This document shows, in pieces, positions 20,063 to 30,501 of a DNA stretch of 41,805 nucleotides. Made by a program: the position numbers and the translations under genes. This stretch comes from Candidatus Eiseniibacteriota bacterium. Lineage in GTDB: Bacteria > Eisenbacteria > RBG-16-71-46. The stretch is taken from assembly GCA_025357055.1 (NCBI GenBank), contig JANXPZ010000208.1, positions 1 through 41,805 of the forward strand, given 5' to 3'. Within the stretch, counting starts at the first letter, position 1. Every line of letters begins with the position of its first letter. Under the pieces are notes generated by a model. That model was not told the DNA's origin. It did not search any database and worked only from the letters and a program-made list of their open reading frames with translations.

Positions 20063-22186
20063 GTGGCGACGAAGAGTCCCAGACCGCCGGCCCTGCCGGC
20101 CCCTGCCGCGGCCGGTGTGGCGCCCCTTTCCGTATCCCACTGGCTGATCCTGACGATGCTCGCCGCGGCGACGTTCGCCGTCTTCGCGGGCGCGCTGCGC
20201 AACGGCTGGCTGACGTTCGACGACCCCCAGTACGTCTTCAACAATCCGCACGTCAGCCGCGGCCTGCGGCTCGACGGCCTGCTCTGGTTCCTCTCGCACC
20301 CCCACAGCGAGAACTGGCACCCGCTGACGTCCTGGTCGCACCTGCTCGACGTCCAGCTGTTCGGGCTCGCGCCGGCCGGACACCACGCCGTGAGCGTTCT
20401 GCTCCATGCGCTGAACGCGGTGCTGCTGGTGGTCGTCCTGCACCGGCTGACGGGGGCGTGGTGGCGCAGCGTGATGGTCGGCACCCTGTTCGCGCTCCAT
20501 CCGCTGCGGGTCGAATCGGTGGTCTGGATCTCCGAGCGCAAGGACGTGCTGAGCGGCCTCTTCTTCCTGCTGACGATCGAGGCCTATCGCAGCTGGAGCG
20601 CGCGTCCGGGTCGCGCGCGCTACGCCGCGCTGGTCGCGGCGCTCGCGCTCGGGCTGATGTCGAAACCGATGCTCGTCACCCTGCCCTTCGTCCTCGTGCT
20701 GCTGGACGTCTGGCCGTTGGGGCGGCTGCGCGGGATGCCGCACCGTCCTTCGACGCGCGCGCCCGCGCTTCCGCTGATGGGACTGATCGCCGAGAAGTGG
20801 CCGCTGTTCGCTCTCTCCGTCCTCTCGGCCGTCGTCACCTTCCTGGTGCAGCGCGGGGGCGGCGCCGTGGCCTCGGTCGAGATGATCCCGCCCGCCCGCC
20901 GTGTCCTCAACGCGCTGGTGTCGTACTGGCGGTACATCGGGAAGACCTTCTGGCCGCACGACCTCTCGGTGCTGTACCCGTACCGCAGCGACCCGGAGAC
21001 GCTCGCGGCCGCGGTGGGCGCCGTCGCGCTCCTGGTCGTGACGGTCCTGTTCCTGCGGCAGGCGCGCCGGCGGCCCCACCTGCTGGTCGGCTGGCTCTGG
21101 TACCTGGGCATGCTGGTTCCCGTGATCGGCCTGGTCCAGGTGGGCAGCCAGGCCTACGCGGACCGCTACACCTACCTGCCCGCCATCGGGCTGCTCATCG
21201 CGCTGGTCTGGTTCGCGGGCGAACTGGCCGCGCACTCGCGCGCGGCGCGCGCGGTGGCCGTGGGTGTGTTCTCGCTCGCCCTGGTCGGCTTCTCGGTGGT
21301 CACCGTGCGGCAGGTCCCGCTGTGGAAGGACACCCGCACGCTCTTCGAGCACGCCCTCGCCGTCACCCGCGACAACCCGACCGCGCACGAGAAGCTGGGC
21401 GAGGTCCTGATCCAGGAGGGCCGGTTCCAGCCGGCCGTCGCCCAATTCGAAGATGCGCTTCGCCTGCGGCCGGGCTACGCCGAGGCGCACACCAATCTCG
21501 GCAGCGCGCTCGGCATGCTGGGTCGCTCCGACGAAGCCATCGTCCATTTCCGTGCCGGGCTGGCCGTGAAACCGTCGGCCGACGCGTTCCACAATCTGGC
21601 GTTCACGCTCGCCCGGTCGGGGCGCGTGGACGACGCGATCCCCGAATACGAAGCGGCGCTCCGGCTCGACCCAGGACGCTACGGCACCCTCGTGCAGCTG
21701 GGGACGGCGCTCGCCGCGCGAGGACGGTTCGCCGAGGCCGCGACCTGTCTGCAACGGGCCCTGGACATGAATCCCGCCGACCTCGAGACCCGCCGCCTGC
21801 TCGCCGTCACCGCCCTGCGGCAGGGGCGGGTCGGAGACGCGGTCACCGCCTACCGGGAGATCCTGCGCCGCAGCCCGGATGACCTGGATGCGCTCAACAA
21901 TCTGGCCTGGATCCTCGCGACCCACGCCGATCCGGCCCGCCGCGACGGCGCCGAGGCGGTGCGCCTGGCGGAGCGCGCGCGCGACCGCAGTCCGCAGCCC
22001 GTGGCCGTGTTCTTCAGCACGCTGGCCGCGGCGTACGCCGAGGCCGGACGTTTCCCCGAGGCCGTGAATGCCTGCGAACGCGCTATTGGACTGGCGGGCC
22101 GCGAGCCGCGGACGGAGGAGGTCCGGCGCTACGAGGAGCAGCTCCGCAGCTACCGGGCCGGGAGAGCCTTCCACTTCGCGAAGTGA
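20063..22186 (+). CDS. TMTC-like O-mannosyltransferase-type membrane protein with TPRs, copy 3
   Basis: The 707-aa third tandem paralogue has the same plan: N-terminal membrane part with TFDDPQYVFNNPHV, NWHPLTSWSHLLDVQLFGL, ALHPLRVESVVWISERKD, LGLMSKPMLVTLPFVLVLLD and YADRYTYLPAIG, then TPRs from ~430. It is more diverged from copies 1 and 2 than they are from each other, except in short tracts shared with copy 2 (a RGGGAVASV segment near 20860 and 21971-22063). TPR units include YAEAHTNLGSALGMLGRSDE and the terminal STLAAAYAEAGRFPEAVNAC block. The C-terminal tail is YRAGRAFHFAK. Start GTG. It converges with the divergent TMTC-like gene at 22299. Confidence 0.85.
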   Translation: MATKSPRPPALPAPAAAGVAPLSVSHWLILTMLAAATFAVFAGALRNGWLTFDDPQYVFNNPHVSRGLRLDGLLWFLSHPHSENWHPLTSWSHLLDVQLFGLAPAGHHAVSVLLHALNAVLLVVVLHRLTGAWWRSVMVGTLFALHPLRVESVVWISERKDVLSGLFFLLTIEAYRSWSARPGRARYAALVAALALGLMSKPMLVTLPFVLVLLDVWPLGRLRGMPHRPSTRAPALPLMGLIAEKWPLFALSVLSAVVTFLVQRGGGAVASVEMIPPARRVLNALVSYWRYIGKTFWPHDLSVLYPYRSDPETLAAAVGAVALLVVTVLFLRQARRRPHLLVGWLWYLGMLVPVIGLVQVGSQAYADRYTYLPAIGLLIALVWFAGELAAHSRAARAVAVGVFSLALVGFSVVTVRQVPLWKDTRTLFEHALAVTRDNPTAHEKLGEVLIQEGRFQPAVAQFEDALRLRPGYAEAHTNLGSALGMLGRSDEAIVHFRAGLAVKPSADAFHNLAFTLARSGRVDDAIPEYEAALRLDPGRYGTLVQLGTALAARGRFAEAATCLQRALDMNPADLETRRLLAVTALRQGRVGDAVTAYREILRRSPDDLDALNNLAWILATHADPARRDGAEAVRLAERARDRSPQPVAVFFSTLAAAYAEAGRFPEAVNACERAIGLAGREPRTEEVRRYEEQLRSYRAGRAFHFAK

Positions 22187-22298: not shown

Positions 22299-24236
22299 CT
22301 ACTGACTTCCCGTCCCGGCCAGCGCCTGCGCGGTCGCCTGATCGCTCCGGGCCTGGACCGAATCGCCCAGCGCCGCCTGGACCATGGCCCTGATCTCGTA
22401 CACCTTCGCCATCCGCGGCGAGGTCTCCGCGGCGAGGTTCATCTGACGCAGTGCGTCCGTGAGTCTCCCGCCCCGGTACAGCGCCAGGCCCAGATTGCAC
22501 CTCGCCACCACGTTCCCCGGATCGCGGCCGAGGATCGCGGCGTAGTCGGCGGCCGCCAGGTCGTATTCCCGCAGCCGCTCGAGGTAGAGATATCCCCGCT
22601 GGATCCGGGCATTCGCGCTCGTCGAATCCAGGCTGAGCGCGCGCGTGAAGTCGCGCAATGCCGGACCGTCCAGGCCCAGTCCGATGTACGCGGCGCCTCG
22701 ATTCGTGTACAGGCTGTGGATCGTGCTGTCCAGCGCCACGCCGCGGTCCAGCACGACGACCGCCTCCCGGTAGCGTCCGCAGTAGTCCAGGGCCCCGCCG
22801 TACTGGGCGTACGCGCTCGCGTCGCGGGGACGGAGCGCGACCACCCGCTCGCAGTCCCTGGCGGCGAGACCGAACTGCCCGATGGCCACGAAGGCCATGG
22901 AGCGGTTGGTCAGCGCGATGGTGGAGGCCGGGTACTTCGCGATCACGTCGGTCCACAGCGTCACGCTGTCCTTCCACACTCGCGCCCGAAGGCCACTCAT
23001 GAGCGCGAAGCACGCGATCGCGGACACCACCAGCGTGCGGATGGCCCGGGCCCGGCCGCTGCCGCCCGCAACCGCCGCCCCGGGCCACGCCTGTCCGACG
23101 ATCCAGCACAGGCCGAGGTAGGGGACGTACGTGTAGCGCTCCGCGACGAACGCCCGGCCGACCGACAGGAGCTGCAGCACGGGCGCGATGGTCAGGGCGA
23201 AGAAGAGGAAGCCGAAGGCCAGGTCGCGCTGCCGGGAGCGGACCTGGAGGATCGCGATCGCGACGGCCAGCGCGAAGAGCGGGCCGCTCCACACCCAGAG
23301 CGGCAGCGTCCCGTCGGGGCCCAGCGGATAGGGATGGAAGGCCGAGAGCGGCGCCGGCACGACGAAGCGGACGAGATACAGCACGAGCCCCCAGGAGGCG
23401 AAGAGGAGACTCTGCCAGAGGGGCAGGTTCTGGTTGTTGACGTTCCCGCCGGTCCACTGCGCCTGCACCGCGATCACGCCGAAGACCAGCGCGAGGAGGA
23501 AGAACGGCGCCTTTCCGAGCAGGCTCGTGCGCGTGACCGGACGGCGCTGGTATGCGTCCGCCAGCAGCATCACCACGGGGAGCACGACGGCCTGCCCCTT
23601 CGAGAGCAGCGACAGGAGGAAGAGCAGGAGCGAGCCCGCGAGGTACCGGGCCCGGCCGCTGGCGCTGTGCCGCAGGTACAGGAGCAGCGAGCCCAGGAAG
23701 AACGCGGTGTAGAGGACGTCCTTCCGCTCGGAGATCCACGCGACGGACTCCACGTGCATCGGGTGCAGCGCGAACAGGGCGGAAGTCACCAGCGCGCCGG
23801 GAGCGTTGCCCGCCGTGAGCGCCAGGACCACCCGGTACACGAGGACCGTGCTCACGAGGTGAAGGAGGAGGCTGGTGACGTGATAGGCGAGCGGGTTCGC
23901 CCCGACGAAGTGCCACTCGATCGCGTAGGTCAGCAGCGTGAGCGGGTGGTAGTTGCCCAGCACGTACGTCGTCGGCGTGAAGAGCTTCACGAGCGTCTGG
24001 AACGAGAGGTGGTTCACCAGGGGATTGTTGAGCAGGTACTGATTGTCGTCCCAGTTGGTGAGCGCGTTCCGGAGCGAGGGCAGGTAGACGAGGAAGGTCG
24101 CGAGCAGGACGCCCGCCAGGGCCCAGGGCAGCCCGGGCGCGGGCGACGGGCGGGCCGCGTCACTGCCCCGGGACGGCGGAGCGCCGGACTTGCGGGAATC
24201 GGAGCGATCACGGTTCTGCAGACGTTGGGTCGTCAT
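22299..24236 (-). CDS. Divergent TMTC-like membrane glycosyltransferase with TPRs
   Basis: From the ATG at 24236 the product is 645 aa. It has an N-terminal membrane part with the acidic loop (LTNWDDNQYLLNNPLVNHL), GNYHPLTLLTYAIEWHFVG, ALHPMHVESVAWISERKDVL, SLLSKGQAVVLPVVMLL and ERYTYVPYLGL. TPR-like units follow (RSMAFVAIGQFGLAARDCER, GAAYIGLGLDGPALRDFTRA, CNLGLALYRGGRLTDALRQM). The motif set is TMTC-family, but it is clearly a different subgroup from the plus-strand copies and lacks the YRAGRPFHF tail. An alternative start at 24281 adds 15 residues. I prefer 24236 because it overlaps (ATGA) the stop of a small upstream ORF with an excellent ribosome site, whereas neither start has one of its own. 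Confidence 0.82.
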   Translation of the reverse strand: MTTQRLQNRDRSDSRKSGAPPSRGSDAARPSPAPGLPWALAGVLLATFLVYLPSLRNALTNWDDNQYLLNNPLVNHLSFQTLVKLFTPTTYVLGNYHPLTLLTYAIEWHFVGANPLAYHVTSLLLHLVSTVLVYRVVLALTAGNAPGALVTSALFALHPMHVESVAWISERKDVLYTAFFLGSLLLYLRHSASGRARYLAGSLLLFLLSLLSKGQAVVLPVVMLLADAYQRRPVTRTSLLGKAPFFLLALVFGVIAVQAQWTGGNVNNQNLPLWQSLLFASWGLVLYLVRFVVPAPLSAFHPYPLGPDGTLPLWVWSGPLFALAVAIAILQVRSRQRDLAFGFLFFALTIAPVLQLLSVGRAFVAERYTYVPYLGLCWIVGQAWPGAAVAGGSGRARAIRTLVVSAIACFALMSGLRARVWKDSVTLWTDVIAKYPASTIALTNRSMAFVAIGQFGLAARDCERVVALRPRDASAYAQYGGALDYCGRYREAVVVLDRGVALDSTIHSLYTNRGAAYIGLGLDGPALRDFTRALSLDSTSANARIQRGYLYLERLREYDLAAADYAAILGRDPGNVVARCNLGLALYRGGRLTDALRQMNLAAETSPRMAKVYEIRAMVQAALGDSVQARSDQATAQALAGTGSQ

Positions 24237-24295
24237 GACCCGATCGAGAAGATCGTCGCAGTCCCGCTGTGAGTCCGGCATGCCAGCGCGTCCAT
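24233..24295 (-). CDS. Possible 20-codon leader peptide translationally coupled to the TMTC-like gene
   Basis: On the minus strand GAAGGAGGG (24310-24302) sits 6 nt before an ATG at 24295, the best ribosome site in this area. It opens a 20-residue ORF beginning MDALACRTHSGT whose TGA stop (24235-24233) overlaps the next ATG (24236) as ATGA. This could be a real leader peptide used for coupling. Alternatively the ribosome site marks a frameshifted true start of the larger gene. No attenuator structure or codon run is visible. Confidence 0.4.
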   Translation of the reverse strand: MDALACRTHSGTATIFSIGS

Positions 24296-24569: not shown

Positions 24570-26405
24570 CTACAGCTCGTTGCCGTCCGGTCCCAGCAGT
24601 CTGCCCTTGCGTGGCGCCTTCGCCGCCTGCTCTGGACCGGCGGTCTCCGCGCCCCCGGCGCCCTCCTCGTCCTCCGCGTCCGGCAGCGCGTCGCCCTCGC
24701 TCACCTCGATGACGTACTCGTCGCCGACCTTGCGCGGCACGATGACGCGGTGCAGGGCCACGGCGAAGACGTCGTCCATGGTCGCGACCGGCACCAGTTC
24801 GAGCCGGTCGCGCACCTCGCGCGGGATGTCCTCGAGGTCGTTCTCGTTGACCGCCGGGTAGAGCATGGTGCGGAAGCCGGCGCGGTGCGCGGCCAGCGCC
24901 TTGTCGCGCAGTCCACCCACGGCGAGCACCTTGCCGCGCAGGCTCACCTCGCCGGTCATCGCCACGTTGCGGCGGATGGGCCGGTCGCTCAGCACCGAGG
25001 CGATCACGAGCCCCACGGTGATCCCCGCCGAGGGACCTTCCTTGGGCACGCCGGCGGCGGGGAAGTGGATGTGGATGTCGTACTCGGCGAACGCCTGCGC
25101 GTCGATCTGCAGCATGTCGGCGCGCGAGCGCACGTAGGAGTGCGCGGCCTGCACGGACTCCTTCATCACCTCGCCGAGCTGTCCGGTGGTGACGAGGTGG
25201 CCCTGGCCGGGCATCTTGAGCGCCTCGACGGTGAGGATCTCGCCGCCGGTCGAGGTCCAGGCGAGCCCGGTGGCCACGCCGACCTCGTCGTTCTTGCCCG
25301 CGGTCTCGAGCGTGAAGAGCCGGTGGCCGAGGTAGCGCTCGAGCCTGCGGGGCGTGATGACGTGCCGCTTCGCGTCGCCGGTCGCGCGGACGCGCGCCAC
25401 CTTGCGGCACGCGGTCGCGATCTGGCGCGCGAGCCCGCGCACGCCGGCCTCGAGCGTGTACTGACGCACGATGGTCCGCAGGGCCCCGTCGGTCAGCCGC
25501 AGGTCGCCCGGGGCGAGCCCGTGCTCGCGCAGCAGGCGCGGCACCAGGAAGCGACGTGCGATCCTGAGCTTCTCGGCCTCGCTGTAGCCGGGCACCTCGA
25601 TCAACTCGAGGCGGTCCTGCAGGGGCTCGGGCACCAGGTCGGCGTTGTTGGCGCAGAGCAGCAGCACGGCGTGCGACAGGTCGAGCGGCAGGCCCAGGTA
25701 CTGGTCGGTGAAGTGGGCGCTGCTGGCCGGGTCGAGCAGCTCGAGCAGGGTCTCGAACGCGCCGAGCCCGGTCTCCCCGATGAGCCGGTCCACACCATCG
25801 ATCATGATCACGGGATTGCGCACGCCGGCCTCGCGCAGCGCCCGGACGATCTTGCCAGGCTGCGCGCCCGGCAGCGCGCGCGGAACGCCACGCAGTCCGC
25901 CGACCTCGCCCGCGCCGGAGACGCCCAGCCGCACGAACGGCCGGTGCAGCGCGTGCGCCACGGCGGCGGCGAGCGAGGACTTGCCGGTCCCCGGGGGGCC
26001 GACCAGGCACAGCGCGGGACCGGGCAGATCGTGCTTGAGCCGGCGCACCGCGAGGTACTCGACGATGCGTTCTTTGGCCTTGGCCAGGCCGAGGTGCTCG
26101 CGGTCGAGGGTCGCTTCGACCTGCTTCAGGTTCACGTCCTCGGGGGCCGCCCGTTCCCAGGGCAGCGCCCAGAGCCACTGCAGGTAGGCGCGCACCTGCC
26201 CCGCTTCGGGCGAACCCGGTGCGAGGCGGCGCAGCCGGTCCATCTCGCGCTGCGCCTGGCGTGAGACCTCCGCGGGCAGGCCTGCGACCTCGGTCAGCCG
26301 GGCCGACTGCGGCCCCTCCGGGCTCACGCGCTCGAGCGAGGCGGACGCGCGCATGCCACGGGCGGGGCTCTTCGGATTGGCTCGCGAGCGCAGGTTCCTC
26401 GGCAT
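24570..26405 (-). CDS. Lon-like serine protease lacking the N-domain, with altered AAA+ motifs
   Basis: This 611-aa protein is shorter than Lon (~780-820 aa) because it starts just before the PW motif region, omitting the globular substrate-binding N-domain. Walker A is intact (GPPGTGKS, 136-143). The protease domain has the Ser-Lys dyad: S459 in GPSAGITVG and K502 in GGLRDKALAAHRAG. The motor is unusual. Walker B reads MIDGVDRL where Lon has LDEIDK, so the catalytic Glu is Gly (204). The pore-loop region (RGVPRALPGAQPG) lacks the usual Tyr of RTYIGSMPG. Sensor-1 Asn, arginine finger (QDRLE) and sensor-2 Arg (GVRGLARQ) remain. A GGAGGAG ribosome site precedes the ATG at 26405. ATP may bind but hydrolysis should be weak or lost. 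The acidic/Ala-rich C-terminus is longer than usual. Confidence 0.85.
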   Translation of the reverse strand: MPRNLRSRANPKSPARGMRASASLERVSPEGPQSARLTEVAGLPAEVSRQAQREMDRLRRLAPGSPEAGQVRAYLQWLWALPWERAAPEDVNLKQVEATLDREHLGLAKAKERIVEYLAVRRLKHDLPGPALCLVGPPGTGKSSLAAAVAHALHRPFVRLGVSGAGEVGGLRGVPRALPGAQPGKIVRALREAGVRNPVIMIDGVDRLIGETGLGAFETLLELLDPASSAHFTDQYLGLPLDLSHAVLLLCANNADLVPEPLQDRLELIEVPGYSEAEKLRIARRFLVPRLLREHGLAPGDLRLTDGALRTIVRQYTLEAGVRGLARQIATACRKVARVRATGDAKRHVITPRRLERYLGHRLFTLETAGKNDEVGVATGLAWTSTGGEILTVEALKMPGQGHLVTTGQLGEVMKESVQAAHSYVRSRADMLQIDAQAFAEYDIHIHFPAAGVPKEGPSAGITVGLVIASVLSDRPIRRNVAMTGEVSLRGKVLAVGGLRDKALAAHRAGFRTMLYPAVNENDLEDIPREVRDRLELVPVATMDDVFAVALHRVIVPRKVGDEYVIEVSEGDALPDAEDEEGAGGAETAGPEQAAKAPRKGRLLGPDGNEL

Positions 26406-26733
26406 GTCTCCTCCGTCGCTGGGCGACGTGCGCATGGCTTTCGGACCGATGAGAAACCCCGGGACCGGTCGGACGGGACCGCTCCATTCTCCTGCGATAT
26501 GCAAACCGTCTGCCGGGACCAAGCCTTGGGATGCTCAGTCCGCTCATCCGGTCTAAGTCGTTGGGGGATAGGTCAATCGTGTGACTGCCCAGAGGATTAC
26601 GAGACTTCCAGCAGGCCCCGCACCGGGAAGGATGGGACCGCCCTGGTCGGTAGCCGCACAGTTAGCAGCCGGCGGGGTACAAACGGACAATCCATGTTGA
26701 CAATGACGACCGTCGCGGTTGACAATAAACGCC
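26406..26733. other. Divergent regulatory region between lon-like and wHTH-ATPase genes
   Basis: About 330 bp of clearly lower GC than its neighbours separates the two divergent genes. No gene is supported in it. The right end carries regularly spaced TTGACAA repeats that reach into the start of the plus-strand gene. Promoters for both genes presumably lie here, but I cannot place a reliable -35/-10 pair. Confidence 0.5.
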
Positions 26734-26747
26734 ATGATGGTTGACAA
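26697..26747 (+). promoter_or_regulatory. Three TTGACAA direct repeats at exact 22-bp spacing (putative operator)
   Basis: TTGACAA begins at 26697, 26719 and 26741. The units are preceded by TG or GG (extended consensus KGTTGACAA). The 22-bp period is about two helical turns, so a protein could bind all three on one face. The third copy lies inside the coding start of the wHTH-ATPase gene, suggesting autoregulation by its own winged helix. TTGACA also equals the -35 consensus, but no -10 is suitably spaced. Confidence 0.6.
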
Positions 26748-27864
26748 AGATGGAGGCAAGGAACACAGCGGGCGCGAACACAGCGGGCGCGAACACAGCG
26801 AGGATCCGCCCTGGATCGCGGACGCACCGCTCGACCCCATGGCCGAGTTCATCCTTGGGGCGGTCGAGGCGCACCCTCGTGACCTCGTGCGGGTCACGAC
26901 GGAGGAGTTCGGCATCTCGCGGCAGGCGGTGCATCGCGTGGTGCGACGCCTCATCGACCAGCAGTTGATCCAGGCGAGCGGCCAGACGCGCAGTCGGCGA
27001 TACGCGCTTGGGCCGGTCCGGGAGCGCTTCGCGGTGCTGAAAGTGTCCGCGGACCTGGACGAGGACAGGGTCTGGACCGACCTGGCGAAGCCCCACCTGG
27101 CGGGGTTGCCACAGAACATCATGAGCATCTGCCAGTATGGGTTCACCGAGATGCTCAACAACGTGGTCGACCACTCTCAATCGTCGCGGGTGGCCGTCTT
27201 CATCACGCGAAAGCCACAGAGCATCGAGTTGCAGGTGCGAGATCATGGGATCGGCATCTTCCGCAAGATCCAGAGGGCGTGTGGGCTGGCCAGCGAGCAC
27301 GAGGCGATCCTGGAGCTGACCAAGGGGAAACTGACGACCGACCCCGCGCGCCATACGGGTGAGGGCATCTTCTTCAGCTCGCGGATGTTCGACACATTCC
27401 GCATTACCTCGGGGGAGATCGTCTTGCTGTGCCGCGCCGACGGAGAGCCCTGGTCGGTCGAAAAGCGGGCGCCTGCAGAAGGGACGTTCGTGACCATGCG
27501 GATCGATCCGGGATCACCGAGAACGACACGAGAGGTGTTCGAACGGTTCGCGAGCGCGAAGGATGACTTCAGTTTCGACCGGACCCACCTGCTGGTGAGG
27601 CTCGTCGACCTCGAAGGGAATGCGCTGGTGTCGCGCTCTCAGGCCAAGCGCGTTGTGGCGAGGCTTGAGCGATTCCGGGAAGTGGTCCTGGACTTCGAGG
27701 GCGTGGAGAGCGTGACCCCGGCGTTCGCCGACGAGATCTTCCGGGTGTTCGCGTCCGGCCACCCGCGGGTGCGCCTGCTGCCGGTCAACGACAACGAGCA
27801 GCTCCGCCAGATGATCGACCGGGCAGTGAACGGACGGAAGGAACAGGCGCAACGAGGGGAGTAG
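26734..27864 (+). CDS. Winged-helix / HATPase / STAS-like (DUF4325) regulator
   Basis: The product (376 aa from the ATG at 26734) has three domains. A winged helix is at about 35-93 (FGISRQAVHRVVRRLIDQQL, then a basic wing GQTRSRRYALG). A GHKL ATPase is at about 120-265, with N-box GFTEMLNNVVDHS (E139, N143), G1 box RDHGIGIF and G2 box HTGEGIFFSS. A C-terminal STAS-like DUF4325 domain is at about 283-370 (SRSQAKRVVARLERF, LDFEGVESVTPAFADEIFRVF). Combining an anti-sigma-like kinase fold with a STAS-like domain recalls partner-switching modules, here with DNA binding in one chain. The N-terminal ~30 residues include a threefold 15-nt repeat (EHSGR units). A start at 26839, directly before the winged helix, cannot be excluded. 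Confidence 0.8.
   Translation: MMVDKDGGKEHSGREHSGREHSEDPPWIADAPLDPMAEFILGAVEAHPRDLVRVTTEEFGISRQAVHRVVRRLIDQQLIQASGQTRSRRYALGPVRERFAVLKVSADLDEDRVWTDLAKPHLAGLPQNIMSICQYGFTEMLNNVVDHSQSSRVAVFITRKPQSIELQVRDHGIGIFRKIQRACGLASEHEAILELTKGKLTTDPARHTGEGIFFSSRMFDTFRITSGEIVLLCRADGEPWSVEKRAPAEGTFVTMRIDPGSPRTTREVFERFASAKDDFSFDRTHLLVRLVDLEGNALVSRSQAKRVVARLERFREVVLDFEGVESVTPAFADEIFRVFASGHPRVRLLPVNDNEQLRQMIDRAVNGRKEQAQRGE
26759..26800 (+). repeat. Threefold 15-nt tandem repeat at the 5' end of the wHTH-ATPase gene
   Basis: GAACACAGCGGGCGC is repeated twice, with a third partial copy GAACACAGCG, encoding EHSGR-EHSGR-EHS. It is in frame. It could mark slippage in a disordered N-terminus, or indicate that translation starts downstream. 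Confidence 0.7.
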
Positions 27865-27960: not shown

Positions 27961-30501
27961 CTAGCGGGGAGGTCCGTTCAGGCGCGCGGCGAACGCCCGA
28001 TGGACCGCTGCGGAGTCGGGGGCGCCGGCCCGGGCCAGGAGCCGGTCGAGCGCCTCGTGCGCCGCGGGGGCGAACGGGTCGATGCGCAGCGCCTCGCGCC
28101 AGGCCACGATCGCGCCCTGCGCTTCACCGCGACGCTCCCGCGCCATCGCCTCGATCACGTGCGCTTCGGGCATGTCCGGATTCAGCGCGATGGCTCTTCC
28201 GGCTTCGACGATCGTCCCGTCGAGGTCGCCACTGGCTGCGGCGATCTGGCCGAGAGCCACGCGTCGCTCCACGAGATCGGGCCCGGCCCGGCCTCTCGCA
28301 TCGAAGAACGCCTTCAACTGCGGCAGGGTGGCGCCCTGCCGGTTCATGAATTGCGCCAGGTTGATGCTGGCGCTCCAGTCGGCCGGGTCCCGCGCGATCG
28401 CCTCGTTCAGGAGGGCGACGCCTTCCCGGCCTGCGCCTCGCGAGAACGCGGTCTCGCCGCGGAACGCCAGGGCCCGCGGGGAACCGGCGCCGAGCCACAT
28501 GGCTCCGTACGAGGCGAGCGCCCAGGTGCCGAGCAGGACCAGCAGGAGTGTCGCCGACCAGCGGGCGCGGGTCATCGCGAAGTCCAGGCCCACGGCGGCG
28601 AACGAGCACAGCGGCAGCAGCGCGCCGGGGCCGTAGAACGACTTCACCATCCCGTAGTAGGGCACCTGGAGCGTGATGAAGACGACGGCCATGAAGGTCG
28701 CGAACGCCAGGCCCAGGATGGCGGTGTCCCGCAGGCTCGGCTGACGGATCCACCGCAGCAGGAACACGACGCCCCCGGCCAGGATGGCCAAGCCGGGGAT
28801 CAGCGCCAGCAGGTAGCCCGCGGACATGAGGTCGGAGCACCAGGGCGGTGCCGTCCAGATCGTGGTCTGGCCCGAGCACAGGCCGTCGCCCCAGAGCGTC
28901 GAGTAGAGCCCGTCCCAGACCCCGGCGAATCCCGAGAACAGTGGCGCCGAGAACGTCCGCCCGAATCGCAGGTAGTCGTGAGCGGTTCGATAGCCCGGGT
29001 CCTGCCACCAGCGCGCCCCCGTGTCCGGGTCCAGGTTTCCGAACAGCGGTGCGACGACCCGCAGCCAGGCCTGTCCATAGTGCCAGCCGCAGATCAGGAG
29101 CGTGATGCCCGCGGCGAGACCGAGCCCCGCCAGCCCGCGAAGCAGGACCTGGCGTGGGCGACCGACCACCCGGACGGCGAGCATGACCAGCGTGACGGAG
29201 ACCACGAGGAGGGCGGAGAACTTGGCCATGAGTGCGAGACCCATGCAGAGCCCGAGCCATCCGTGGAGCCGAAGGGACGGCGGGTCCGTGCGGATGACGT
29301 GCAGGGCGACCAGGAGCACCGCGCTCGAAAGCGTGGCCGCCAGGATCTCGTTGGTCGGGAGCTGATACAGGTAGAGCTGCACGGGCAGGAACGTCGCGAC
29401 GATGAGTCCGAGGAACTGCCGCCGCGGGTGGTCCGGGAACGCGAGGCGGAGGAAAGCTCCGACCAGGACGAGATTGGCCACGCCGAACGCGAGCCCCAGC
29501 CAGCGGAGCATGCTGGCTGCGTCGGGCCCGGGAACCGTGAGGCCCGCGGCCGCCATGACCAGCGCCGCGATCACGTAGTACAGCGGCGGCTGGTGTGTCT
29601 GCCAGCCCTGGTCGGCCGATGGCAGCGAGTGGTGTTCGAGGAGGTAGCGGATGTAGCTCAGGTGATCGTTCGCATCGAATCCGGACGCGGCGCTCAGCCA
29701 CCGATCGTTGTTGATGAACAACGCGGCCCAGGCCGCGGCCGCGACCATCAGGGCGATCCGGAGAGCCCACCCGGAGGCCAGTGCCTGGCCGGCCTGCTTC
29801 CCCCGGCTCCGGATCCACCAGGAGCCGAGCGCGACCATCGCACCCGAGAGCAGGGCCAGCAGCGCCACCGTCCAACGGCGGGCCAGCAGCGCGTCCACCG
29901 GCGACCGGGCGCGCCCGTCCGGGTCGAATCGCCGCTGGCTCGCGGGAACATCCGCGCGCGCCGCGCTGGCCCAGGTCGCTCCGGCCCAGGAGACCGCCCA
30001 GCGCTCGTCGCTGCCGATCGCCTGACCGGGTAGCGCCAACCGCAACCAGAGCGCGGGTGGTCCCGTGCGATTGGAGACGAGGACCTCGATGCGGTTGTCG
30101 CCGACGCGCAGCAGGCTGGCGACGTCCACCCGACGAACGCTCTTCCACGAGGCGTCGTCGGCGCTCCGGAGCACGGGCTGGCCATTGACGGTCAACTGGA
30201 ACCGGCGGAAGGCGCGCAGTTGGAGTTCCGCCGAGCGTGGCCGGCTCGCGAGCGTGAATGAGCGCCGGAACAGCGCATCCAGCTCGACGGCCGGGTGGAT
30301 GGCCGGATTGCCCGGGGATGGATAGACGATCCAGTCGGCCCCCGGGCGCGCGCTCAGGAAGGGGACCTTCGGATCCTGGAGCGCCCTCCAACCCATCCAG
30401 GTCAGCGCCAGCGTGAGCGCCGCGATGGCCACCAATGCCGCGATGGCCGTGGCGCGGCTCCGCGCCACCGGGGCATCGGGAATCCGGATCTTTCCGTTCA
30501 C
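27961..30501 (-). CDS. GT-C membrane glycosyltransferase with N-terminal beta-sandwich and C-terminal TPRs
   Basis: The 846-aa product starts at a GTG. One membrane helix (about 18-38) is followed by an external beta-rich domain (about 50-195, PALWLRLALPG and VNGQPVLRSADD regions) resembling carbohydrate-binding jelly-roll folds. About 11 further helices (200-670) follow, with a catalytic-type acidic loop (ASGFDANDHLSYIRYLLEHH) and QPPLYYVIAALVM, typical of PMT/ArnT-like GT-C enzymes. TPR-like repeats end the protein (about 690-840, NEAIARDPADWSASINLAQF, AIALNPDMPEAHVIEAMA). An exported acceptor is likely, since the acidic loop and extra domain face outward. It is convergent with the wHTH-ATPase gene and follows the secreted two-module gene by 81 bp on the same strand. 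Confidence 0.82.
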   Translation of the reverse strand: MNGKIRIPDAPVARSRATAIAALVAIAALTLALTWMGWRALQDPKVPFLSARPGADWIVYPSPGNPAIHPAVELDALFRRSFTLASRPRSAELQLRAFRRFQLTVNGQPVLRSADDASWKSVRRVDVASLLRVGDNRIEVLVSNRTGPPALWLRLALPGQAIGSDERWAVSWAGATWASAARADVPASQRRFDPDGRARSPVDALLARRWTVALLALLSGAMVALGSWWIRSRGKQAGQALASGWALRIALMVAAAAWAALFINNDRWLSAASGFDANDHLSYIRYLLEHHSLPSADQGWQTHQPPLYYVIAALVMAAAGLTVPGPDAASMLRWLGLAFGVANLVLVGAFLRLAFPDHPRRQFLGLIVATFLPVQLYLYQLPTNEILAATLSSAVLLVALHVIRTDPPSLRLHGWLGLCMGLALMAKFSALLVVSVTLVMLAVRVVGRPRQVLLRGLAGLGLAAGITLLICGWHYGQAWLRVVAPLFGNLDPDTGARWWQDPGYRTAHDYLRFGRTFSAPLFSGFAGVWDGLYSTLWGDGLCSGQTTIWTAPPWCSDLMSAGYLLALIPGLAILAGGVVFLLRWIRQPSLRDTAILGLAFATFMAVVFITLQVPYYGMVKSFYGPGALLPLCSFAAVGLDFAMTRARWSATLLLVLLGTWALASYGAMWLGAGSPRALAFRGETAFSRGAGREGVALLNEAIARDPADWSASINLAQFMNRQGATLPQLKAFFDARGRAGPDLVERRVALGQIAAASGDLDGTIVEAGRAIALNPDMPEAHVIEAMARERRGEAQGAIVAWREALRIDPFAPAAHEALDRLLARAGAPDSAAVHRAFAARLNGPPR

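Follow-up and report, generated by a model that had tools for sequence, protein, structure and literature searches.

The Lon-like gene and its domain layout

The window, by which we mean the whole stretch of 41,805 nucleotides of Candidatus Eiseniibacteriota DNA analysed here, encodes a Lon-like protein on its minus strand (Table 1). The reading frame given in the initial annotation proved exact, and its start codon is backed by an MxRxxRxR N-terminus that is kept in the orthologue consensus. The protein shares the AAA+, lid and protease order of LonA (endopeptidase La, MEROPS S16.001; TIGR00763). The N-domain is missing, as had been claimed. A Pfam search did not find LON_substr_bdg (PF02190) in the 611-residue protein, and the full-length lon model TIGR00763 (795 positions) aligned only over positions 261 to 794, with a score of 598 bits, just under the 608-bit cut-off. 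TIGR00764 and TIGR02902 match the C-terminal domain only. A hidden N-domain can be ruled out, because the open frame upstream of the ATG reaches just 43 codons and the next gene is divergent. The place of the canonical LonA N-domain is occupied by the tail of residues 1–40; the orthologues carry basic tails as well (four sequences inspected, together with the consensus).

Table 1. Features of the Lon-like gene and its product, with positions in the window
Feature	Position	Strand	Remarks
LonA-derived protein with hydrolysis-dead-looking motor	24570..26405	-	611 aa; ATG start at 26405, stop at 24570
Basic N-terminal tail, residues 1-40, probably disordered	26286..26405	-	pLDDT <50
AAA+ alpha/beta subdomain, ~residues 86-270	25596..26150	-	Pfam AAA 132-268; helices and strands in the model
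Walker A GPPGTGKS, residues 136-143	25977..26000	-	K142 invariant
Pore loop 1 RALPGAQPG, residues 176-184	25854..25880	-	Tyr lost, Ile to Pro
Walker B D203 G204 (GAT GGT)	25794..25799	-	catalytic Glu to Gly
AAA+ lid, ~residues 271-350, with sensor-2 R323	25356..25595	-	Pfam Lon_lid 294-346
Lon_C serine-lysine protease domain, ~residues 365-552	24750..25313	-	Pfam Lon_C 350-552, E 1.9e-81
Catalytic Ser459	25029..25031	-	16/16 in the orthologue set
Catalytic Lys502	24900..24902	-	15/15; one sequence ends at a contig end

The Walker B motif reads M-I-D203-G204-V-D206-R-L, with GAT (D203) at 25797-25799 and GGT (G204) at 25794-25796, and both the exchange of the catalytic Glu for Gly and the loss of the pore-loop Tyr stand as first read. 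Also present are K142, sensor-1 N253, R265 at the Arg-finger position, sensor-2 R323, and the intact dyad of S459 and K502. Pro458 precedes Ser459 and exactly 42 residues lie between S459 and K502 (PSAG site), an A-type arrangement by the rule that A-type Lon sites have Pro before Ser and 42 residues from Ser to Lys (PMC9569914). The 60 residues between K142 and D203 are the LonA value.

An AlphaFold2 monomer model from a 21-row alignment (mean pLDDT 77, pTM 0.54) shows confident folds for the AAA, lid and protease parts, with low confidence for the tails 1–40 and 562–611. Its closest PDB matches are Lon proteins. Owing to the low pTM the relative placement of the domains is unreliable, and the pocket geometry was not used.

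Conservation of the altered residues among orthologues

The orthologue set comprised 16 sequences, namely the window protein and 15 proteins from Eisenbacteria genomes of the same family, which are mostly metagenome assemblies. Identity of the orthologues to the window protein is 62–72% over the alignment. An intact orthologue was found in 16 of the 20 family genomes, that of the window included; one of them ends at a contig end. A partial second family copy at a contig end (G011:C249, L147), 66–68% identical to the window protein, could be a paralogue, a strain mix or contamination.

At the position of the Walker-B Glu, all 16 orthologues have Gly and none has Glu, with GGC, GGT, GGA or GGG as the codon. 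The DG pair is therefore constant throughout the set and a DE pair is absent, which settles the check on Gly204 that had been proposed and rules out an isolated mutation or a sequencing error. Likewise, the pore Tyr is found in 0/16 sequences, and the Ile/Val that should follow it is also absent (0/16), with Pro in its place in 15. By comparison, all 41 other LonA sequences of our tree carry both the Walker-B Glu and the pore Tyr and are canonical at the counted positions.

The initial annotation listed Walker A, both sensors and the arginine finger as persisting. This is correct for the window protein at each position, and for the whole orthologue set as regards the Walker-A Lys and the sensor-2 Arg, to which the Walker-B Asp can be added (16/16 each). 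It does not extend to every orthologue for sensor 1, which is Asn in 15/16 and Thr in one, or for the Arg finger, which is retained in 13/16 and replaced by His in three. The catalytic Ser is invariant (16/16), as is the catalytic Lys in the 15 sequences in which it can be read. This pattern indicates that selection maintains the Walker-A Lys, the Walker-B Asp, the sensor-2 Arg and the Ser-Lys dyad. It also bears out the view that the protein has lost the hydrolytic Glu and the pore aromatic but still has its residues for ATP binding.

That the gene is a pseudogene in decay or an assembly artefact is barely credible. One further copy (L020 / L144), in the 65% complete genome G015, has an in-frame TAG between residues 364 and 369, the only in-frame stop among the orthologues and either a true pseudogene or the product of faulty assembly; in three of the 20 family genomes no match was obtained. 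However, those three assemblies are incomplete (80–92%), the open reading frame is intact and its catalytic residues conserved in 16/20 genomes, and the protease is at least as conserved as in canonical Lons. Such a reading is already contradicted by this conservation pattern.

Loss of hydrolysis is predicted from the Glu to Gly exchange, which need not abolish all ATPase activity. Another acidic residue or an altered geometry might stand in for the missing Glu and sustain a slow ATPase, and a conserved Glu of a GExG motif after Walker B (residue 211) is kept in most orthologues. Yet this Glu is Leu in L015, the His-Gly-Glu spacing otherwise belongs to the pore-loop-2 region, and the pore loop that would use the energy of hydrolysis is lost as well. 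We therefore consider residual ATPase activity of this kind quite improbable, and favour a motor that has lost hydrolysis.

Relation to known Lon types

A six-frame family search of the genome revealed three Lon_C genes, namely the one described here and two canonical lon genes (L001 and L002), in line with the earlier proposal of a Lon paralogue. L001 and L002 have Walker B motifs LDEVDKL and LDEIDKL, RTYIG pore loops and N-domains, and the window protein is 46% identical to these paralogues. Against LonA-type proteins, identity ranges from 39 to 53% over a shared core of 515 residues. Unlike LonA, the window protein lacks the N-domain, the Walker-B Glu and the pore-loop Tyr, and falls below the TIGR00763 cut-off. 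Of the traits that define LonA it thus has the A-type site and the descent, and lacks the N-terminal LON domain or coiled-coil and the complete motor.

The combination of a retained protease dyad with a lost hydrolytic Glu (G204 and Ser 16/16, Lys 15/15) is reminiscent of LonC, which has an intact Ser-Lys protease and a non-hydrolysing AAA-like module that still binds nucleotide (PMC3391209). Membership of LonC (MtaLonC, TTC1975; MEROPS S16.007) can nevertheless be rejected. Among solved structures, LonA proteins are the closest in sequence, with 501 bits to B. subtilis LonA (3m6a), whereas the best LonC chain reaches 28 bits over 119 residues (residues 385–503 only). LonC moreover resembles LonB and has lost its sensors and Arg finger (PMC9569914, PMC3391209), whereas the family described here keeps the sensor-1 Asn in 15/16 and the sensor-2 Arg in 16/16 sequences.

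The window protein is also similar to LonBA (B. subtilis LonB) in having an A-type active site and no LonA-type N-domain. LonBA, however, is presumed to be membrane-bound, has an N-terminal segment of its own and shows a Walker A to B spacing of 82 residues (PMC9569914), in contrast to the 60 residues counted here. Neither a membrane anchor, nor Asp before Ser, nor LonBA-specific insertions are present; the residue before Ser is Pro and the spacing is that of LonA. A further parallel is offered by engineered LonA variants, the N-domain deletion AAAP of MtaLonA and the Walker-B mutant E591A of LONP1, whose two lesions this natural protein unites. It differs from them in being naturally selected and lineage-wide, in having Gly instead of Ala, and in its altered pore loop.

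Taken together, the protein is best explained as a LonA-derived Lon with a putatively dead motor, which would work like LonC without being one. In the open-access papers searched we found no description of LonA-derived proteins with a dead motor, of Eisenbacteria Lon or of a pseudo-ATPase Lon, which is not proof of novelty.

Graded decay of the motor within a third Lon clade

To the initial annotation our analysis adds that the change is lineage-wide and part of a third Lon clade, in which motor decay is graded across two phyla, that not every orthologue keeps the Arg finger, and that the conservation of the AAA and protease domains is inverted. The clade emerged from a tree built on the protease domain alone, with all motor residues excluded. 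We use "Lon3" as a working name, coined here, for this third paralogue clade, which forms one side of a branch with UFBoot/SH-aLRT support of 99/87. On this grouping with full-length, canonical-motor Lon3 proteins of its class, the window protein descends from LonA. Within Lon3, support is 100/98 for the family of the window protein, 100/99 for eight full-length canonical-motor proteins from another family of the same class, and 100/98 for the degenerate proteins of a second phylum. All degenerate Lon3 proteins except L026 group together with 96/84; the motor could have been lost once, in accordance with this value, or several times. The long branch L030 joined the family of the window protein in a sparse tree and separated from it after sequences of its own phylum were added.

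Two partly decayed members come from close relatives. L026, from the same class, retains the N-domain and the Walker-B DE, and has a pore loop 1 of KTLPGSQPG and no Arg finger. L031, from the same order, has lost the LON domain, apparently keeps part of the helical linker, and reads VDDIDKL at Walker B and RPHTAAQPG at the pore loop.

The second phylum was represented by 132 genomes, from which the Lon3 sample was taken as the best 30 matches to one member of its own, and not as a census. Among the 24 of its Lon3 proteins in the tree, the Walker-B Glu is replaced by Asp in 21 and by Pro, Gln or Gly in the remainder. The sensor-1 Asn is absent (0/24) and the sensor-2 Arg is found in 3/24, with the Ser-Lys dyad present in 24/24. 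The one protein checked for it, P0002, keeps the N-domain. Judged from these residues, motor decay is worse in the second phylum than in the family of the window protein, with the dyad intact in both. Strongly decayed proteins of the L170-L211 type are frequent in the second phylum; these have EDIDYF at Walker B, Arg, Asp or Leu at sensor 1 and, in one case, Ile for the Walker-A Lys, again with an intact dyad.

Since the clade holds canonical as well as partly decayed members, it may preserve a record of the stepwise loss of pore loop, Walker-B Glu and N-domain. The natural intermediates comprise proteins with full canonical motors, proteins that have lost pore loop and Arg finger but still have the Walker-B Glu, proteins with Asp at that position, and proteins with Gly there and no N-domain.

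Constraint on the motor and the protease domain

As a measure of constraint we took mean column identity, separately for the AAA alpha/beta domain and the protease domain. For the full groups, the AAA and protease values are 0.846 and 0.771 in canonical LonA1 of the same family and 0.870 and 0.720 in LonA2, as against 0.720 and 0.790 in the family of the window protein. A matched set of 11 genomes gave 0.844 and 0.765 for LonA1 and 0.722 and 0.804 for the family. Constraint is thus inverted: in canonical Lons the protease is the less conserved of the two domains, and in this family it is the AAA domain. Bootstrap 95% intervals over columns for the AAA-minus-protease difference are –0.128 to –0.014 for the family and +0.022 to +0.125 for LonA1, with no overlap between the two full groups. 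At least as much constraint acts on the protease as in true Lon, which cannot be said of the motor. The second-phylum Lon3 relatives show values of 0.537 and 0.719. In the canonical-motor Lon3 of family f5 the values are 0.839 and 0.883, which indicates that strong conservation of the protease characterises the clade as a whole, and that it is the drop in the AAA domain that sets its degenerate members apart.

These values bear on the earlier suggestion of a regulator of true Lon, in which the protein would enter mixed hexamers with canonical Lon and slow, retarget or stabilise them. The same genome does hold two canonical lon paralogues, and the retention of nucleotide-binding residues and sensor 2 is what a non-hydrolysing ring subunit would show. 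By contrast, the AAA domain as a whole is less constrained than its counterpart in canonical Lons, the Arg finger, which would act on the ATP of the neighbouring subunit, is His in 3/16, and identity to the canonical paralogues is just 46%. The dyad is fully constrained, although a subunit with a purely structural role could do without it. A regulatory subunit is therefore possible, if rather unlikely. Of the three functions put forward initially, an ATP-independent or ATP-licensed peptidase is the best supported.

Proposed mode of action

We consider it probable that the protein is a peptidase of LonA descent with an AAA+ ring that has ceased to act as an ATP-burning unfoldase; its cutting activity possibly needs ATP binding. 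Several studies on Lon relatives provide a frame for this proposal. The peptidase activity of E. coli Lon is stimulated most strongly by ATP/Mg and AMPPNP/Mg, the latter permitting slow, non-processive proteolysis (PMC7800598). Each MtaLonC hexamer binds six nucleotides; the enzyme shows no ATPase activity, and its substrates are limited to unfolded ones (PMC3391209). When LonA is deprived of its N-domain, disordered casein is still digested, but a thermally unfolded domain is not degraded efficiently (PMC8087443). In human LONP1, E591A is described as a hydrolysis-blocking Walker-B mutation and used as a control, and the pore mutant Y565A lowers casein degradation (PMC8163871). Combined, these data point to a proteolytic chamber that would accept peptides and disordered chains, with nucleotide binding most likely acting as a structural or allosteric permit.

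The protein would assemble into a Lon-like hexamer and bind ATP or another nucleotide without productive turnover, which would hold the ring and the protease domains in an active state. Short peptides, as well as polypeptides that are disordered or unfolded beforehand, could then diffuse through the non-gripping pore and be cut, probably less processively. Folded proteins would not be unfolded, a job presumably left to the cell's two canonical enzymes, L001 and L002. Such a mechanism would resemble that of LonC and would have evolved independently, from a third paralogue of LonA type. The wider claim is that at least two bacterial phyla harbour a LonA-derived class of Lon without a working motor, where nucleotide binding permits proteolysis instead of hydrolysis powering it, and that the LonC mode of action would thereby have originated a second time, independently. 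We hold this claim to be evenly balanced between true and false.

The permit could equally have the opposite sign. The LONP1 Walker-B mutant with ATP has its protease held in an inactive conformation (PMC8163871), and a locked ATP state might thus inhibit proteolysis, as a brake, instead of licensing it. The strict retention of ATP-binding residues could, moreover, serve something besides self-activation. In a ligand-gated peptidase, the former ATPase site would act as a sensor that binds ATP, ADP or some other nucleotide, and proteolysis would be switched on or off by the energy state or by a signalling nucleotide. The invariant Walker-A Lys, Walker-B Asp and sensor-2 Arg, kept despite the loss of hydrolytic and gripping residues and in contrast to the sensors of the second-phylum relatives (Asn 0/24, Arg 3/24), would suit such a sensor. 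The sequence, however, does not discriminate this from simple ATP licensing, and the gene neighbours give no consistent hint. We regard ligand gating as unlikely and retain the nucleotide-licensed peptidase as our working model.

Lon is the textbook ATP-powered protease, and a selected, lineage-wide variant makes it possible to test directly what ATP binding does for Lon by itself. This variant keeps the cutting site and, in the family of the window protein, the ATP-binding residues, and appears to have discarded hydrolysis, gripping and substrate recognition. Annotation pipelines will probably label such genes as ordinary ATP-dependent Lon.

Gene neighbourhood and stand-alone LON domains

In most family genomes (L129-L143) lon3 lies near a common gene set, annotated in L132 as an S11 D-Ala-D-Ala carboxypeptidase, a TauE permease and an aminotransferase. 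The neighbourhood in the window differs. A functional link through neighbouring genes was rejected, as no consistent partner was found.

The divergent neighbour in the window (26719-27864, plus strand) combines a MarR-like HTH, a histidine-kinase-like ATPase and a STAS-like DUF4325 in one protein, an unusual architecture for a regulator. Flanking lon are large proteins with C-terminal TPR repeats, at 20063-22186 (plus strand), 22299-24281 (minus strand) and 27961-30501 (minus strand). Their N-terminal parts look like multi-spanning membrane regions, with one weak match to PMT_2 mannosyltransferase.

Elsewhere in the genome, L229 (G000:C75:4347-4919) encodes a stand-alone LON substrate-binding domain protein of 215 aa, directly downstream of superoxide dismutase-like and Bcp-type peroxiredoxin-like genes. 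Stand-alone copies of the LON domain occur across the class, also in genomes with a full-length Lon3, and this coexistence led us to reject a transfer of the lost N-domain to a separate gene. L229 is nonetheless a possible partner of the window protein.
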